Below the pieces are notes generated by a model. The model was not told the origin of the DNA and made no database searches. It saw only the letters and a list, made by a program, of their open reading frames with translations. Source: Streptococcus sanguinis SK49 (GTDB lineage: Bacteria; Bacillota; Bacilli; Lactobacillales; Streptococcaceae). From it: a stretch of 64,000 bases of DNA. Numbering within the stretch: position 1 is the first letter of the stretch; every line of letters begins with the position of its first letter. A program made the translations under genes and the position numbers. Shown piece after piece: positions 28,975-48,186 of the stretch. Where the stretch lies: positions 401,324 to 465,323 of the forward strand of contig NZ_GL890985.1 in the NCBI RefSeq assembly GCF_000212815.1, given 5' to 3'.

Positions 28975-30721
28975 GAAGCCTTCATTATTTAGCCAGATAC
29001 GGCCTTATCTCAAAGGCTTCCAGCTTCCTCTTGCTTTGGCATTTGTGGGAGCTGTCTTGTCAAACATTATCACGGTCTATGGGCCAAATAAATTAAAAGA
29101 AATTACCAACCTCATCTCTGAAGGTTTGGCTACCAGTATTGATTTGAAAGCTGTGTCTCAGATTGCCCTTTTGCTGACCGTGCTCTATGCAGTCGGAGCC
29201 CTGCTCAACTATGGTCAGTCCTTTATCATCAGTACGGTTATCCAGTATTTCTCCAAGCGGCTGCGGACGGCCATTGCAGAGAAGATAAACAAGCTGCCGT
29301 TGGGCTATTTTGACGGTCATTCTCAGGGGGATACTCTGTCGCGCGTGACCAATGACGTAGATACGGTCGGCCAATCCCTCAACCAGAGTCTGGGGAATGT
29401 TATCTCTGCCAGCTTGCTCTTGGTGGCTGTGGTCTTGACCATGTTCTTCATGAACTGGATCTTGGCCTTGGTAACCATCTTGGCTACTGTATTAGGCTTT
29501 GTCTTTGTCGGTCTCATCATGGGCAAGTCTCAGGGCTATTTCACCGCCCAGCAAAACGATCTGGCGGCTGTCAACGGTTATGTAGAGGAAATGTACTCCG
29601 GTCATAATGTCGTTACCAGCTATAATGCTATTGAGCAGTCTAAGGAGCGCTTTGCAGTTCTCAATCACAATCTCTATAACAGTATTTGGAAGTCTCAATT
29701 TATCTCTGGCATGATGATGCCGCTCATGTTCTTTACGGGGAATTTTGCCTATGTGCTGGTTATTTTGGTCGGTGCTACTCTGGCAATTAATGGCTCTATT
29801 AGCATCGGAATTATTGTCGCCTTTATGGTTTATGTGCGGACCTTCTCTCAGCCATTGTCACAGATTGCTCAAGGTATCACTGTCTTGCAGCAGGCTGGTG
29901 CAGCACTGGTTCGTGTCCTTGAATTTCTGGCTGAGCCTGAGATGGAAGACGACCAGTATAAAGAGCGGCAGCTTGCTGCTGTCAAGGGAGATGTTGCCTT
30001 TGAAGAGGTCTTCTTTGGCTATAAGCCAGACCAGACGATTATTCATGATTTCTCAGCCCAGGCCAAAGCAGGACAGAAGATAGCCATTGTCGGCCCGACT
30101 GGTGCTGGTAAGACAACCATCGTGAATCTGCTCATGAAGTTCTATGAAATTGACAAGGGTCGTATCAGCATTGATGGTATAGATATTAAGGATATGAAAC
30201 GCTCCGAGGTTCACGATGCCTTTTCAATGGTCTTGCAGGATACCTGGCTCTTTGAGGGGACGATTCGGGAGAACTTGATTTACAATCAGGAGCATGTGAC
30301 TGATGAAGCAGTTGTTGCTGCAGCGAAGGCGGTCGGTGTTCATCACTTTATTATGACTCTGCCACAGGGCTATGATACGGTGCTGGATGACACGGTCAAC
30401 TTATCGGTCGGTCAGAAGCAGCTGCTGACAATTGCTCGTGCTCTGTTGAAAGATGCGCCGCTCTTGATATTGGATGAGGCAACTTCGTCAGTCGATACGC
30501 GGACGGAGGAGCTCATTCAAAAGGCTATGGACAAACTCATGGAAGGCCGGACTTCTTTTGTCATTGCCCACCGTCTGTCTACTATCCGTAATGCGGATCT
30601 TATCTTGGTCATGCGCGATGGAAATATCATCGAGCAGGGCAACCATGATGAACTCATGAATCAGAATGGCTTCTATGCGGATCTCTATAATAGTCAGTTT
30701 GTAGAGGAAGATGCAGGTTGA
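28964..30721 (+). CDS. ABC exporter half-transporter with canonical ATP site
   Basis: A 585-residue partner of the preceding protein. Exporter membrane domain to about residue 320, then Walker A GPTGAGKTT, signature LSVGQKQL (canonical LSGGQ altered), Walker B LLILDEATSSVD with Glu intact and switch His in VIAHRLST. Together the pair can build one active ATP site (Walker motifs here, signature from the partner) and one degenerate site. It overlaps the upstream gene by 11 bases with AAGGAGG before the ATG. Confidence 0.92.
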   Translation: MENKKPSLFSQIRPYLKGFQLPLALAFVGAVLSNIITVYGPNKLKEITNLISEGLATSIDLKAVSQIALLLTVLYAVGALLNYGQSFIISTVIQYFSKRLRTAIAEKINKLPLGYFDGHSQGDTLSRVTNDVDTVGQSLNQSLGNVISASLLLVAVVLTMFFMNWILALVTILATVLGFVFVGLIMGKSQGYFTAQQNDLAAVNGYVEEMYSGHNVVTSYNAIEQSKERFAVLNHNLYNSIWKSQFISGMMMPLMFFTGNFAYVLVILVGATLAINGSISIGIIVAFMVYVRTFSQPLSQIAQGITVLQQAGAALVRVLEFLAEPEMEDDQYKERQLAAVKGDVAFEEVFFGYKPDQTIIHDFSAQAKAGQKIAIVGPTGAGKTTIVNLLMKFYEIDKGRISIDGIDIKDMKRSEVHDAFSMVLQDTWLFEGTIRENLIYNQEHVTDEAVVAAAKAVGVHHFIMTLPQGYDTVLDDTVNLSVGQKQLLTIARALLKDAPLLILDEATSSVDTRTEELIQKAMDKLMEGRTSFVIAHRLSTIRNADLILVMRDGNIIEQGNHDELMNQNGFYADLYNSQFVEEDAG

Positions 30722-30854: not shown

Positions 30855-30883
30855 TTGACAGCTTTTGTCGTTTATATTAAAAT
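30855..30883 (+). promoter_or_regulatory. Promoter of the cobalamin operon
   Basis: TTGACA at 30855-30860 and TAAAAT at 30878-30883, spacer 17. Transcription should start near 30890, giving a leader of about 130 bases before cbiA. Confidence 0.75.
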
Positions 30884-30904
30884 AAATTTAATATAAGAAC
30901 TGAA

Positions 30905-30955
30905 AGCGAACACAACGGGGTGTTTGTTCTACATATAAGTGAGCAACGGTGCTAC
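30905..30955 (+). promoter_or_regulatory. Candidate ANTAR dual-hairpin antiterminator element
   Basis: Hairpin 1: 30905-30913 pairs with 30920-30928 (nine pairs, two G-U) around the six-base loop AACGGG (30914-30919). Hairpin 2: GTGAGC (30939-30944) pairs with GCTAC (30951-30955), with one bulged G, around the loop AACGGT (30945-30950). The linker is ten bases. Both loops have A at position 1 and G at position 4, the established signature for RNA bound by ANTAR-domain antiterminators such as EutV. Hairpin 2 shares its loop end and 3' arm with the terminator that follows, so the two are mutually exclusive. The protein partner is not in the window. Confidence 0.72.
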
Positions 30956-30996
30956 AAAAAAATAAAAATTCCTTATTTTTTTGTAGTACTTTTTTT
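30949..30996 (+). terminator. Leader terminator (attenuator) before cbiA
   Basis: The arm at 30949-30965 pairs with 30973-30989 over 17 bp (one G-U), loop of seven bases, followed by T7 at 30990-30996. The lower stem is GTGCTAC with GTAGTAC and the upper stem is A-T rich. It lies between the promoter and the first cob gene, so by default it would stop most transcripts. cbiA starts 24 bases later behind GGAG at 31009-31012. Confidence 0.88.
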
Positions 30997-31019
30997 ATCA
31001 GCGAATCTGGAGTAAAGCG

Positions 31020-32378
31020 ATGAAGCAATTTATGCTAGCTGGTGTTTCCAGCGGTGTCGGAAAGACCACAGTTACCCTAGGGATTTTGAAAGCTCTGGCA
31101 GACAGAGGTTATCAGGTCCAGCCTTATAAGGTAGGACCTGATTATATTGATACAGCTTATCATAGTCGGATTACCAAGCGGCCTTCACGGAATGTGGACA
31201 GCTTTATGATACCGGACGATCAGAGTCTGGCTTGGTCCTACTATAAATGGCATGGAGATGCTGATGTGGCAGTGGTCGAAGGAGTCATGGGGCTCTTTGA
31301 TGGTCTGGGAACGGACAAGGACTGTGCGTCTTCTGCTTCTGTTGCTAAGAAGTTGGGAATTCCTGTTGTCTTGATTATTGATGGGAAGGCAACATCCACC
31401 TCAGCGGCTGCTATGGTCCATGGTTTTGCGACTTTTGATCCCGATTTGGATATTGCTGGGGTCATTATCAATCGGGTGGCTTCACAGACTCACTTTGAAC
31501 TTATCAAGGGCGCCATTGAGCGTTACACGGATGTGGAAGTGCTGGGCTATCTGCCTAAGAATGCAACAGCAGAGCTGCCATCGCGCCATCTGGGTCTAAT
31601 CCCAGACATAGAAATGGATGATTTGGACCGTCGATTTGAGGAGTTGGGAGCGGCAGCGGCTAAGCATATAAATCTAGACAGGCTGCTGGAAAAGGCAGAA
31701 CTTCCCGATAAGCGGATGACAAATCCTTTTCGTATCCGCAATGACCAGCCCTTAACTTTGGCTTATGCTTTGGATGATGCTTTTCACTTTTACTACGAAG
31801 ACAATCTGGACTTTCTAAGAGAGCTCAATGTCCAGCTGGTACCTTTCAGCCCCCTGAAAGATAAGGAACTGCCAGCAGCAGATGCATATTATTTTGGCGG
31901 CGGTTTTCCAGAAGTCTACGCTCAGGAGCTGATGGCAAATGCTGACTTCCGGGCTTCGGTCAAGAAAGCTCACGAGCAGGGCCGGCCAATCTATGCAGAA
32001 TGCGGCGGCCTCATGTATCTGGGAGAGCTGCTGGAAGTAGATGGTCATATCTATGAAATGGTCGGTATTTTCGAGGGCAAGAGCCTGATGACCCCCGGCC
32101 TGAAAAGCTTTGGCTACTGCCAAGCAGAAACGCAGGTAGACAGTCTTTTTGGCCCTAAAGGTACAGCGGTCAGGGGACATGAGTTTCACCATTCAGTCTT
32201 TGAGACGGAGGAAGTTACGGTCCTCAAGCTAGAGAAGGTCAGAGACGGTCAGGTCGTAGCTGCCTGGACAGGCGGTTATCAAAAGGGCCGGACCTTTGCC
32301 AGCTACTTGCATGTTCATTTTTATCAGGACGAGCAGCTGCTGGCCAACTGGCTGAATTATATCAAAGAGGCGAACTGA
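31020..32378 (+). CDS. cbiA: Cobyrinate a,c-diamide synthase
   Basis: A 452-residue ATP- and glutamine-dependent amidotransferase that amidates the a and c side chains of cobyrinate. The N-terminal P-loop GVSSGVGKTT is at residues 8-17 with KVGPDYIDTAYH following, and a C-terminal class I glutaminase domain has its nucleophile Cys328 in YAECGGLMYLG and a conserved HEFHHS block. It is the first gene of the B12 operon, preceded by the attenuated leader. cbiB follows after one base. Confidence 0.95.
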   Translation: MKQFMLAGVSSGVGKTTVTLGILKALADRGYQVQPYKVGPDYIDTAYHSRITKRPSRNVDSFMIPDDQSLAWSYYKWHGDADVAVVEGVMGLFDGLGTDKDCASSASVAKKLGIPVVLIIDGKATSTSAAAMVHGFATFDPDLDIAGVIINRVASQTHFELIKGAIERYTDVEVLGYLPKNATAELPSRHLGLIPDIEMDDLDRRFEELGAAAAKHINLDRLLEKAELPDKRMTNPFRIRNDQPLTLAYALDDAFHFYYEDNLDFLRELNVQLVPFSPLKDKELPAADAYYFGGGFPEVYAQELMANADFRASVKKAHEQGRPIYAECGGLMYLGELLEVDGHIYEMVGIFEGKSLMTPGLKSFGYCQAETQVDSLFGPKGTAVRGHEFHHSVFETEEVTVLKLEKVRDGQVVAAWTGGYQKGRTFASYLHVHFYQDEQLLANWLNYIKEAN

Positions 32379-33339: not shown

Positions 33340-34038
33340 ATGACATATATCCAAAATCCTTCCTCTATCGAGGAAAAGAGCTTTCAAATCATTCAGTCTA
33401 TGATTACTGAAAAAGACCCTGATTATGTCTTCCATTCGGAAATGGAAGAATCCATCATCAAGAGGGCAATCCATACGACGGGAGATTTTGATTATCTCTA
33501 TACCATGCGCTTTGAGCACGAAGTCCTTAAAAAAATTGAAGAGGTAATCAGAGCTAAGGGTACCATCCTACTGGACTCCAATATCTCTCTCAATGGCATT
33601 AACAAGCGCGTGCTTGACCAGCTGGGTGTGAGCTACCGCTGTTTGATTAGCGATGAAGAAGTAGTTGCGCTGGCCAAGGAAAAGCAGATTACCAGAGCTA
33701 TGGCGGCTGTTGAGATAGCAGCCAAGATTGAAGGACCTAAAGTGTTTGCCTTCGGTGGTGCTCCTACGGCTCTGTCTTATCTGATTGAGCTGGCGGAGCA
33801 GGGACTGGTAGAAGCGGATGCAGTGATTGGGGTTCCAGTCGGCTTTATCAATGTCGAAGAATCCAAAGAAGAACTGCTTCAGTCAGGTCTTCCTGCCCTT
33901 GTAAATCTCGGCAGAAAAGGCGGCAGCACGATTGTAGTAGCCATTATCAATGCCATTATCTATCAGCTGAGAGAAGTGGTGACGGACGACTATGTCCGCT
34001 ACTCTACACCATCCAGTAAAGAAGGAGGAAAGAACTAG
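33340..34038 (+). CDS. cbiC: Cobalt-precorrin-8 methylmutase (catalytic copy)
   Basis: A 232-residue enzyme that moves a methyl group from C11 to C12 to make cobyrinate. The catalytic His, His45 here, lies in KRAIHTTGDFDY. Other conserved blocks are LLDSNISLNGIN, RAMAAVEIAAK, GVPVGFI and RKGGSTI. It is the first of two adjacent cbiC-like genes; the stop codon is followed immediately by the ATG of the second. Confidence 0.95.
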   Translation: MTYIQNPSSIEEKSFQIIQSMITEKDPDYVFHSEMEESIIKRAIHTTGDFDYLYTMRFEHEVLKKIEEVIRAKGTILLDSNISLNGINKRVLDQLGVSYRCLISDEEVVALAKEKQITRAMAAVEIAAKIEGPKVFAFGGAPTALSYLIELAEQGLVEADAVIGVPVGFINVEESKEELLQSGLPALVNLGRKGGSTIVVAIINAIIYQLREVVTDDYVRYSTPSSKEGGKN

Positions 34039-34743
34039 ATGTCCTATCTAAAAGCAGCACATAAGATTGAAGAAGCTAGTTTCAGCAAGATTCAGGAAAT
34101 TATTGACCAAGAGCATCCGGATATTCATTTTTCAGATCCTTTTGAAGAGGCAGTGCTCAAACGGGTTGTCTTTACCAGTGCAGACTTTGACTACCTCTAC
34201 AATATCAAGTTTTCCAATCAGGTTATTGAGAAAATCCTCTACGTCCTCCGAAACAAGGGCACGATTTTTACGGATACAACCATGGTCTTGGGTGGTTTTA
34301 ATAAGAAATTGCTGGATGATCTAGGTGTTTCTTATCGCTGTCTGGTCAATGAGCCAGCAGTCTTTCAGGAAGCTAAGGAAAAGGGAATTACTCGCTCCAT
34401 GGCCGCTGTAGAATATGCAGCTAAAGTGGATGGTCCAAAACTTTTTGTCTTCGGGAATGCTCCAACGTCCATCTTTAAGGTTTTGGATATGGTTGAAGAG
34501 GGAAGCTTGCAGCCGGATGCAGTTGTCGGAGTTCCAGTCGGCTTTGTCGGAGCGGCAGAATCCAAGCTCAAACTGCATGAAAGTTCTGTGCCTTCTATTG
34601 CGGCACTGGGTCAAAAGGGCGGCAGTACCATCGCAGCAGCGGTCATCAATGCTATCCTCTACCAGCTCAAGCTCGACACTATGGACTATGAGCGTTACAG
34701 TGTTTCAGATAAAAAGCAGGCTCCGGAGAAAGGAGAGGGCTGA
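34039..34743 (+). CDS. CbiC paralogue lacking the catalytic histidine
   Basis: A 234-residue protein clearly homologous to the preceding CbiC over its whole length without gaps in the first 60 residues. The catalytic His45 is Phe45 here (KRVVFTSADFDY, codon TTT at 34171-34173). The fold-defining blocks RSMAAVEYAAK, GVPVGFV and QKGGSTI are kept and the frame is intact, so it is not a decayed pseudogene. Possible roles are product binding or channelling of cobyrinate, a heteromer with CbiC, or a changed reaction. Annotation as an active methylmutase would be unsafe. Confidence 0.88.
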   Translation: MSYLKAAHKIEEASFSKIQEIIDQEHPDIHFSDPFEEAVLKRVVFTSADFDYLYNIKFSNQVIEKILYVLRNKGTIFTDTTMVLGGFNKKLLDDLGVSYRCLVNEPAVFQEAKEKGITRSMAAVEYAAKVDGPKLFVFGNAPTSIFKVLDMVEEGSLQPDAVVGVPVGFVGAAESKLKLHESSVPSIAALGQKGGSTIAAAVINAILYQLKLDTMDYERYSVSDKKQAPEKGEG

Positions 34744-46130: not shown

Positions 46131-47614
46131 TGGTACAGGGAACTGCCTCAGATGCTGGGAAGAGCATTATTGCGGCAGGGCTCTGCCGGATTTTTAAGCA
46201 GGATGGCCTAGAAGTGGTGCCTTTTAAGTCGCAGAATATGGCGCTTAATTCCTTTATCACCAAAAAAGGGGATGAAATGGGCCGGGCTCAGGTCGTTCAG
46301 GCTGAGGCAGCTGGCAAAGAGCCGGATGTCCGCATGAATCCAGTCCTGCTCAAACCGACCTCTGACCGCAAGTCCCAGGTCGTCTTTTTAGGTCGGGTAC
46401 TGCGGGATATGGATGCTGTCGAATACCATGAATACAAGCAGCAGCTCCTGCCTAAGATTAAGGAGGTCTATGAGGAGCTGGGCGCTGAGAATGATATGAT
46501 CATTATTGAGGGAGCAGGCAGTCCAGCTGAAATCAATCTCAATGACCGAGACATTGTCAATATGGGCATGGCCAAGCTGGTTGATGCGCCAGTGATTTTA
46601 GTGGCGGATATTGATAAGGGAGGCGTCTTTGCCTCTATCTACGGAACGATTGAGCTCATGCCGCCTGAGGACCGCAAGCGAATCAAGGGTGTTATTATCA
46701 ATAAATTCCGAGGCGATGTGGCCTTGCTACAGTCTGGCATTGATATGATTGAAGAGCTGACTCAGGTGCCGGTTATCGGAGTCGTGCCTTATGCCCAACT
46801 GGATATTGACAGTGAAGACAGTGTGGCCCTGGTACAGAAAAGCCGGCGCTTTGATAGCAGAAAGAGTCTGGATATCGCAGTTGTCAGCCTCAGGCGCCTG
46901 TCTAACTTTACGGATTTTCATAGTCTAGAAATCCAGCCGGATGTTTCTGTCCGCTATGTCCAGCCTGGTGATGCAATCGGTCGGCCGGATCTCTTGATTC
47001 TGCCGGGCAGCAAAAATACCATCGAAGACATGAACTACCTACGCGAGTCTGGTCTTGAAGCCGAGATTCTCGAGTGTCTGGAGCAGGGCGTGCGAATCTT
47101 TGGCATCTGCGGCGGCTATCAGCTGCTGGGACAGAAGATTAGCGACCCGCTGCACCTAGAGTCTGACTTAGAAGAGATTAGCGGGCTGGGTATTTTAGAG
47201 ACCGAGACGGTGCTTCAGCCGGTCAAGAGGACGACTCAGGTCAGAGCTCTGCATGAGGGGCAAGACTTAGAAGGCTACGAGATTCACATGGGCGAAACCC
47301 AGCTAGCGGATAGTCTGGAGCCATTTTCCATCATCAAGGAGCAAAATGGTGAGGCGACCGAGCGTCTGGATGGAGCAGTGGCTTATGGCGGTCAGGTGCA
47401 AGGAACCTACCTTCATGGGGTCTTTGACAATCTAGAATGGACTCGTCAGTACCTGAATGAACTTCGGCTGGCTAAGGGCTTAGAGCCGCTAGAGGACCAG
47501 CTTATCAGTATCAAAGACTTTAAAGACAGAGAGTATGATAAGTTAGCAGACGTCCTGCGCCAGTCTTTGGACATGGAGCAGATCTATCAAATCATCAACA
47601 GAGAAGAAAAATGA
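46115..47614 (+). CDS. cbiP: Adenosylcobyric acid synthase
   Basis: A 499-residue glutamine-dependent amidotransferase that amidates the b, d, e and g side chains. The N-terminal ATP site is QGTASDAGKSIIAAGLCRIF, then PFKSQNMALNSFIT. The glutaminase domain has Cys332 in RIFGICGGYQLLGQ, and YLHGVFDN near the C-terminus. AGGAGG lies nine bases before the ATG inside cbiO. Confidence 0.95.
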   Translation: MVKSLMVQGTASDAGKSIIAAGLCRIFKQDGLEVVPFKSQNMALNSFITKKGDEMGRAQVVQAEAAGKEPDVRMNPVLLKPTSDRKSQVVFLGRVLRDMDAVEYHEYKQQLLPKIKEVYEELGAENDMIIIEGAGSPAEINLNDRDIVNMGMAKLVDAPVILVADIDKGGVFASIYGTIELMPPEDRKRIKGVIINKFRGDVALLQSGIDMIEELTQVPVIGVVPYAQLDIDSEDSVALVQKSRRFDSRKSLDIAVVSLRRLSNFTDFHSLEIQPDVSVRYVQPGDAIGRPDLLILPGSKNTIEDMNYLRESGLEAEILECLEQGVRIFGICGGYQLLGQKISDPLHLESDLEEISGLGILETETVLQPVKRTTQVRALHEGQDLEGYEIHMGETQLADSLEPFSIIKEQNGEATERLDGAVAYGGQVQGTYLHGVFDNLEWTRQYLNELRLAKGLEPLEDQLISIKDFKDREYDKLADVLRQSLDMEQIYQIINREEK

Positions 47615-48186
47615 GAATTTATACGAAATACGGTGACAAGGGCTTTACACGGCTCTACGGTGGGGACCGAGTATCCAAGACCCATATTCGGGTCGAAGCT
47701 TATGGAACGATGGATGAGCTATGCTCTCATCTAGGCTATGTCGTATCTGAGATGCGTGACTATCCCATCTTGGATGACCTACGTCTAGAATGCGAGGAAA
47801 TCCAGCAGCATCTCTTTGACTGCGGCAGCGACTTGGCTACACCGAGGGAATTGCGTCCCTACAAGCAAGAGCCAGCCAATGTCAGCTGGCTGGAGGAGCG
47901 GATGGACGAGTATATGCATATTCCTCCGAAAATCGACCGCTTTATCATTCCGGGCGGCCATCGGATTGCGAGTCTTTTGCATGTGGCCCGCACCATGACC
48001 AGACGCCTGGAGCGGCGCATGGTGGCTGTTATAGAGGCAGATGAAGCGGTCAATGAGATAGGCTTGATCTACATCAACCGCCTGTCAGATTACTTTTTTG
48101 TGCTGGCTCGATTGGTCAATGACCGTCTAGAGGAGCCAGATACAATCTACAAACGCAGCGCGAAAATCTTTCGGGAAAAGAAATAG
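47611..48186 (+). CDS. pduO: ATP:cob(I)alamin adenosyltransferase, PduO type
   Basis: A 191-residue PduO/CobA-type adenosyltransferase that adds the adenosyl group to cob(I)inamide or cobyrinate intermediates. Motifs: YTKYGDKGFTRLYGGDRVSK, VEAYGTMDELCSHLG, and the ATP/corrin region GGHRIASLLHVARTMTRRLE. It is distinct from the CobA/BtuR P-loop type. Start overlaps the cbiP stop. Confidence 0.9.
   Translation: MRIYTKYGDKGFTRLYGGDRVSKTHIRVEAYGTMDELCSHLGYVVSEMRDYPILDDLRLECEEIQQHLFDCGSDLATPRELRPYKQEPANVSWLEERMDEYMHIPPKIDRFIIPGGHRIASLLHVARTMTRRLERRMVAVIEADEAVNEIGLIYINRLSDYFFVLARLVNDRLEEPDTIYKRSAKIFREKK

Follow-up and report, generated by a model that had tools for sequence, protein, structure and literature searches.

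B12 synthesis operons are a textbook case of riboswitch control, with repression by the product. Streptococcus sanguinis, a common mouth bacterium, carries a long B12 operon, and the question raised by its locus is how transcription of these genes is controlled. No match to an Rfam riboswitch was found in the window, i.e. in the whole 64,000-nt stretch of DNA that was analysed (C1:401324-465323; the genome measures 2.28 Mb and is divided into 5 contigs). The initial annotation had placed in front of the operon an antitermination leader of the type bound by ANTAR response regulators such as EutV. We followed up this proposal in the genome and in the cobB loci of relatives; the nearest named relatives of the genome are Streptococcus sanguinis records, whose cobB is 96-98% identical.

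The features of the locus are collected in Table 1. The genes from 31020 to 55686 probably form one transcript; among them, cbiN was named by position only, and cbiK, cbiQ and cobC scored below curated cut-offs. The upstream neighbour is an ORF ending at 30721, ABC-transporter-like by eye. Within the operon, two copies of cbiC (cobalt-precorrin-8 methylmutase) lie in tandem (33340-34038 and 34039-34743), both above the NCBIfam cut-off. There are also two pduO-type adenosyltransferases in the genome: the first belongs to the B12 operon (47611-48186), and the other is next to cobT, close to the EutX region (C1:478068-478667). This second pduO-type gene, together with cobD and cobT, is located behind a eutP-like gene (C1:474525-478667), and our covariance model R3 (described below) detected no leader element in the cluster. 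The claim that a whole B12 pathway is under antitermination was therefore slightly too wide: it would apply to the operon from cbiA onwards, and cobD, cobT and the second pduO-type gene lie elsewhere.

Table 1. Positions of the features of the B12 leader and operon (numbered in the window) and of the EutX-like RNA
Feature	Position	Strand	Basis
Putative sigma-A promoter: TTGACA (30855-30860), 17-nt spacer, TAAAAT (30878-30883)	30855..30883	+	consensus match
Cre-like sequence TGAAAGCGAACACA (TGNAANCGNWNNCA), possible CcpA site; overlaps P1 5' arm, early transcribed region	30901..30914	+	pattern match
P1 hairpin: 9 pairs including two G-U, arms 30905-30913/30920-30928, hexaloop AACGGG (30914-30919)	30905..30928	+	folding
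Linker P1-P2, ten bases	30929..30938	+	sequence
P2 hairpin, antiterminator half: AGC (30942-30944)/GCT (30951-30953), hexaloop AACGGT (30945-30950)	30939..30955	+	folding
Intrinsic terminator: 17 pairs, or 18 if the closing G-U is counted, stem 30948-30990, T7 30990-30996	30948..30996	+	folding
cbiA/cobB, cobyrinic acid a,c-diamide synthase, first operon gene	31020..32378	+	NF002204 525.6 bits, cut-off 254
B12 run, first part: cbiB, two cbiC, cbiD, cbiE, cbiT, cbiF, cbiG, cbiH, cbiJ, cobA-type, cbiK, cbiL, cbiM	from 32380	+	profile matches
B12 run, rest: cbiN-sized ORF, cbiQ, cbiO, cbiP, pduO-type, precorrin-2 dehydrogenase-like, hemA, hemC, hemD, hemB, hemL, cobU, cobS, cobC	to 55686	+	
Putative EutX-like RNA: AdoCbl aptamer and two candidate hexaloop hairpins	L002:18750-19077	minus	RF01482 and reading; same place in 11 further regions

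The sequence in front of cbiA agreed with the initial annotation in all its parts. The promoter was present as described, with 11 of 12 consensus letters, though such a match is no commoner here than in shuffled sequence (one here, 1.4 on average in shuffles); transcription is expected to start near 30890. Both small hairpins with their loops, A1 and G4 in each, and the ten-base linker were found, as was the sharing of bases between the second hairpin and the base of the 17-bp terminator stem. Besides its inner stem, P2 has two outer pairs across a one-base bulge, and the T run of the terminator ends 23 nt before the start of cbiA/cobB. The minimum-energy fold of the leader consists of P1 and the terminator (z -3.85; 0/200 shuffles equally stable), and the terminator takes the P2 3' arm together with the 3' half of the P2 loop, so that P2 and the terminator are mutually exclusive. 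It was thus confirmed that the leader (30890-30996) is built as an ANTAR-target RNA: it has two hairpins, each with three or more pairs and a six-base loop, A1 and G4 in both loops, a 10-nt linker and a P2 that overlaps and excludes an intrinsic terminator, and there is an ANTAR protein in the genome.

The hairpins themselves are less conspicuous. When P2 was folded alone, a four-base loop was predicted, closed by an A1-U6 pair (z -0.84; 36 of 200 shuffles equally stable), and the stability of P1, linker and P2 together was unremarkable in comparison with shuffles (z -1.17). Two A1/G4 hexaloops with suitable spacing arose in 239/20000 shuffles of 30890-30960 that keep dinucleotide composition, and in 216/20000 stretches of 71 nt drawn at random from the 64,000-nt window; two loops that also agree in their first five letters appeared in 4/20000 shuffles. 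The case for the element from the single sequence is only moderate. It becomes strong through conservation among leaders and a held-out covariance model.

Conservation was examined at streptococcal cobB loci. Of 147 Streptococcus genomes, 18 contain the gene; together with 20 loci from named Streptococcus records (S. sanguinis, merionis, ovuberis (L071), suis strains, australis, sp. F0442, parasanguinis, varani, catagoni and cuniculi) this gave 38 loci, some genomes being present twice, from two collections. The element was present in 38/38, in 22 distinct versions, and also in two additional streptococcal cobB loci, L210 and L211 (40/40 in total). The loops are kept along with the terminator: the P2 loop has A1 and G4 in all 22 distinct leaders, and the P1 loop has G4 in 22/22 and A1 in 19/22, the remaining three having G at position 1. 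The distance from loop to loop is 19-27 nt. The loops and P2 are the conserved part of the streptococcal cob leader. The three exceptions are the cob leaders L054, L056 and L057, in which the P1 loop reads GACGAT, with G1 instead of A1 and G4 kept.

Pairing was followed across the same 22 leaders, in P1 for the inner six pairs. In P1 and P2, 95.9% of cells were paired, compared with 22-56% (at most 56.1%) in slid controls; for the terminator the values were 94.7% and 52-65% (at most 64.6%). The shuffle tests that follow are inflated by the relatedness of the leaders, and the slid controls are the fairer comparison. The covariation score of P1+P2 was reached by 1/500 shuffles; the number of pairs changed on both sides was two, but 275 of the 500 shuffles had at least as many, and two slid versions had the same number. 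In the terminator three pairs were changed on both sides (reached by 3/500 shuffles), and the number of further pair types was reached by 152/500. In addition, position 6 of the P2 loop covaries with its partner in the terminator (U-A in 13 leaders, G-C in 5, A-U in 3, unpaired in 1). Covariation therefore backs the terminator more than the hairpins, because double changes in P1+P2 are common in shuffles and the P2 stem, invariant among the 22 leaders, never varies.

The same dual-hairpin organisation was found elsewhere in the genome, before eutG (C1:479255) and eutA (C1:483017); P1 of the eutA leader has two pairs, a mismatch and then further pairs. The gene called eutG encodes an iron-containing alcohol dehydrogenase, and its name rests on position because the NCBIfam EutG score was below the cut-off. 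We built model R3 from 23 leaders (13 eut and 10 cob) of other streptococci, none of them from the S. sanguinis group. Over the whole 2.28 Mb genome, R3 recovered the eutG leader with 44.8 bits, the eutA leader with 41.6 bits and the B12 leader with 36.4 bits (E 3.7e-5), whereas the fourth-ranked match had 17.3 bits and an E of about 1. Model R1, made of 16 eut leaders only, placed the B12 leader third among its matches in the window, with 10.1 bits and an E of 0.97, which is not significant. It did find the cob leaders L062 (26.2 bits, E 4.7e-5) and L061 (21.8 bits, E 7.4e-4), so the bridge from eut leaders to the S. sanguinis cob leader passes through these relatives. The rank of the B12 leader with a third model, R2, is not used as evidence because S. 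sanguinis leaders are in its seed.

With these results a different reading of the leader could be weighed, in which it is a plain attenuator or a CcpA-controlled promoter, the terminator being constitutive or governed by some other factor, while the hairpins merely accompany a cre site. Positions 30901-30914 fit the cre consensus and are a possible CcpA site. A perfect site of this kind lies over the P1 5' arm in 8/18 leaders, all from the S. sanguinis-like group, and CcpA has been linked with the eut locus in a transcriptome study of 2020 (PMC7674665). The other 10/18 leaders do not have the strict cre pattern, yet P1, P2 and the loops persist in them, and CcpA-only control leaves unexplained both the covariation of the P2 loop with the terminator and the model that the leader has in common with eutG and eutA. 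We consider this reading improbable; the cre-like sites suggest CcpA control in addition to antitermination.

R3 was also applied to 295 genomes of the order (E <= 0.001). It matched in 22, all of them among the 50 genomes with an ANTAR match, and no R3 match was found in the 245 genomes in which the ANTAR domain had no match; in 28 of the 50 ANTAR genomes there was no R3 match in this search, which had stricter filters. Fourteen of the 22 matched genomes are non-streptococcal and 7/14 have cobB, and in none of these seven was the R3 match at cobB. One R3 match, in L260, lies far from eutV in another genus.

Outside the streptococci, the cobB loci looked different. A loose scan of 56 non-streptococcal loci, four of which (L092, L109, L120 and L139) have <200 bases upstream, gave a single match, in L088, which was judged to be due to chance. 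Similarly, no credible element was seen in 23 non-streptococcal cobB loci, drawn from 25 genomes of which two yielded no locus; the loose matches there had A1 missing in one or both loops, except for a -9.3 kcal match in L220. When ten of these 23 cobB loci were scanned with Rfam, a cobalamin riboswitch was found just upstream of cobB in five (L213, L222, L229, L230 and L233) and no cobalamin riboswitch in the remaining five. The closest non-streptococcal cobB, L212, has neither the element nor a riboswitch.

The regulator was found in the same genome. The ANTAR profile PF03861 had exactly one match (C1:481394), outside the window, in a 191-residue protein with a receiver and an ANTAR domain. 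Its gene lies beside EutW and eut genes, ~49 kb downstream of the B12 leader, and the protein matches the 6wsh/6ww6 chain over its full length (E 5.1e-65), which is E. faecalis EutV (PMC8934654). In an alignment read by eye, with contact residues named as in PMC8934654 (where position 147 is printed L147), D54, K147, R168, M172 and R175 are the same as in E. faecalis EutV, and the contact positions K143I, N173Q and R177P are unlike it; Y164F is milder. The neighbouring gene, EutW, codes for a kinase that combines a PdtaS-type GAF domain with HisKA_2 and HATPase. A eutS-like gene (118.4 bits against a cut-off of 123) precedes eutV, and eutA and eutB come after eutW. The organisation known from RNAs bound by ANTAR regulators of the EutV type is borne out, at the level of sequence comparison, by the conservation of the leader, by the held-out model and by EutV in the genome. 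No second ANTAR protein was found in the genome, and EutV very probably binds the B12 leader and prevents termination.

B12 operons are commonly under riboswitch control, and some relatives have a riboswitch at the same place as the B12 leader, which might speak for an unrecognised riboswitch, or for a leader-peptide attenuator sensing a B12 intermediate. Several observations argue against such a sensor. No cobalamin aptamer was found in the leader, and an Rfam riboswitch search of the 18 streptococcal cobB loci, like that of the window, found none (the sole match was an unrelated sRNA in L057). The part of the leader ahead of the terminator measures ~60 nt, mostly occupied by the two hairpins, and what is conserved in it are the loops and P2. 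We regard this explanation as very improbable.

A cobalamin riboswitch does exist in the genome, near eutV. The only RF01482/RF00174 site found is at C1:478928-479096; the RF01482 match (C1:478928-479076, or L002:19077-18929, minus strand, 130.2 bits) lies upstream of eutG. RF01482 and, independently, RF00174 match the same 19 of 147 Streptococcus genomes, once each and at overlapping sites. These 19 are the 18 genomes with cobB and G111, and all 18 cobB genomes have EutV and exactly one cobalamin riboswitch. An ANTAR match in a genome with no cobB occurs in two Streptococcus genomes, G111 and G022, the latter being a weak match in a 331-residue frame. G111 (L151) has eutV, eut leaders and the AdoCbl riboswitch and no cobB match, i.e. 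a eut module apart from B12 synthesis. In 19/19 genomes the riboswitch is on the eutV contig, in the orientation opposite to eutV; its distance from the ANTAR match is at most ~3 kb, with G024 (11 kb) as the one exception. The cob locus lies 14-50 kb from eutV in 18/18 genomes, so that the co-occurrence of cob and eut may partly reflect linkage and is not independent evidence.

In all 12 regions read (of the 19), the aptamer is followed on the same strand by two hexaloop hairpins, with G4 in 24/24 loops and A1 in 22/24; ten regions were read by script and two (L151 and L199) by eye, and the two hairpins were chosen by hand among candidates. They are mostly within a GAAAGC/GCTTTC-type stem, the first having one closing pair, a mismatch and then five or more pairs, and in several species a T run comes afterwards. 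The loops of this genome are AACGAA and GATGAT, the second having G1 in place of A1. Model R2 gave no significant match to these hairpins (best 14.2 bits, E 0.11). With G1 also in P1 of three cob leaders, G at loop position 1 is possibly tolerated by streptococcal EutV in some targets. The arrangement resembles EutX/Rli55, known from E. faecalis and Listeria, where it acts on EutV in trans, and a 2018 review had already described EutX as reversed within the eut locus of S. sanguinis (PMC5821096). The EutV-type leader of the initial annotation stands, and the AdoCbl riboswitch of this EutX-like module, which is outside the window, changes the logic of control.

The following course of events may be proposed. 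Ethanolamine would activate the sensor kinase EutW, as in work on E. faecalis and Listeria. By analogy with E. faecalis (PMC3369931, PMC8934654), dimers of EutV-P would then hold P2 open and keep the terminator from forming, and transcription would proceed into the B12 operon. AdoCbl would lead to a shortened EutX, and EutV would no longer be sequestered (by analogy; PMC5821096). Ethanolamine and AdoCbl together would then give more of the AdoCbl-dependent lyase and also more AdoCbl synthesis. On the strength of these analogies, there is about an even chance that control of the B12 operon by AdoCbl is positive, i.e. opposite to riboswitch feedback repression.

In a broader reading, streptococci would have swapped riboswitch feedback on the B12 operon for EutV antitermination and kept one AdoCbl riboswitch, in EutX; the product and ethanolamine, the fuel that needs the cofactor, would exert positive control in a feed-forward manner, possibly bistable, with traces of AdoCbl starting bulk synthesis. 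The chances of this being right seem to us roughly balanced. Another explanation has the EutV part in common with our main one: the leader is a EutV target and AdoCbl has little or no positive effect, either because the leader is a good competitor of EutX or because enough B12 is made through basal read-through, which would leave ethanolamine as the sole real signal. The cob loops (AACGGG/AACGGT) are more alike than the EutX loops of this genome, so the relative affinities for EutV may differ, and a strain that needs AdoCbl to make AdoCbl would require a start-up source. On the other side, every cob genome has its one cobalamin riboswitch near eutV, in the EutX position, and EutX/Rli55 is known to act in trans on EutV in E. 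faecalis and Listeria (PMC5821096). We hold this ethanolamine-only explanation to be rather unlikely.

The proposed control through EutV and EutX can be set beside known systems. EutV-responsive leaders of the E. faecalis eut genes (eutP and others) and of ef0120 have A1/G4 hexaloop pairs with P2 overlapping the terminator (PMC3369931, PMC8934654), and linkers among the eut leaders are 5-12 nt long (PMC3369931). The B12 leader is like them in its A1/G4 hexaloop hairpins, its short linker, the overlap of P2 with the terminator and the presence of EutV/EutW in the genome, but it precedes a B12 biosynthesis operon and not genes of ethanolamine catabolism; moreover, A1 of P1 is G in some streptococcal relatives and some RNA-contact residues of EutV differ. 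As in EutX/Rli55, there is one AdoCbl riboswitch in this genome, followed by two candidate hexaloop hairpins; what differs is that B12 synthesis, too, would be under the decoy, the ligand favouring its own production. Cobalamin riboswitch leaders (RF00174, RF01482) are similar in their place before cobB and, in most, in having a terminator; unlike them, the streptococcal cob leaders have no aptamer, and the expected response to AdoCbl is opposite in sign.

The dual hexaloop motif with A1 and G4 is also known from targets of NasR, AmiR and actinobacterial ANTAR proteins (PMC3369931, PMC8164766), where signals and genes are different and, in the text consulted, an operon for B12 biosynthesis is not mentioned. 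Streptococcus is named among the covariance matches of the 2012 screen, with no details in the available text (PMC3369931). In a literature search of openly licensed papers we found no description of an ANTAR leader on a B12 operon; an earlier listing among the matches of the 2012 screen is possible. On its own, the B12 leader adds another example to the ANTAR-target RNAs, and the novelty lies in its position and in the proposed sign of control.

Through the exchange of one ~100-nt leader, a vitamin pathway of ~25 kb has apparently come under the regulator of a catabolic pathway that consumes the vitamin. The sign of control by the product would be reversed via an sRNA decoy, and the EutV regulon would be extended from the use of a fuel to the supply of a cofactor.
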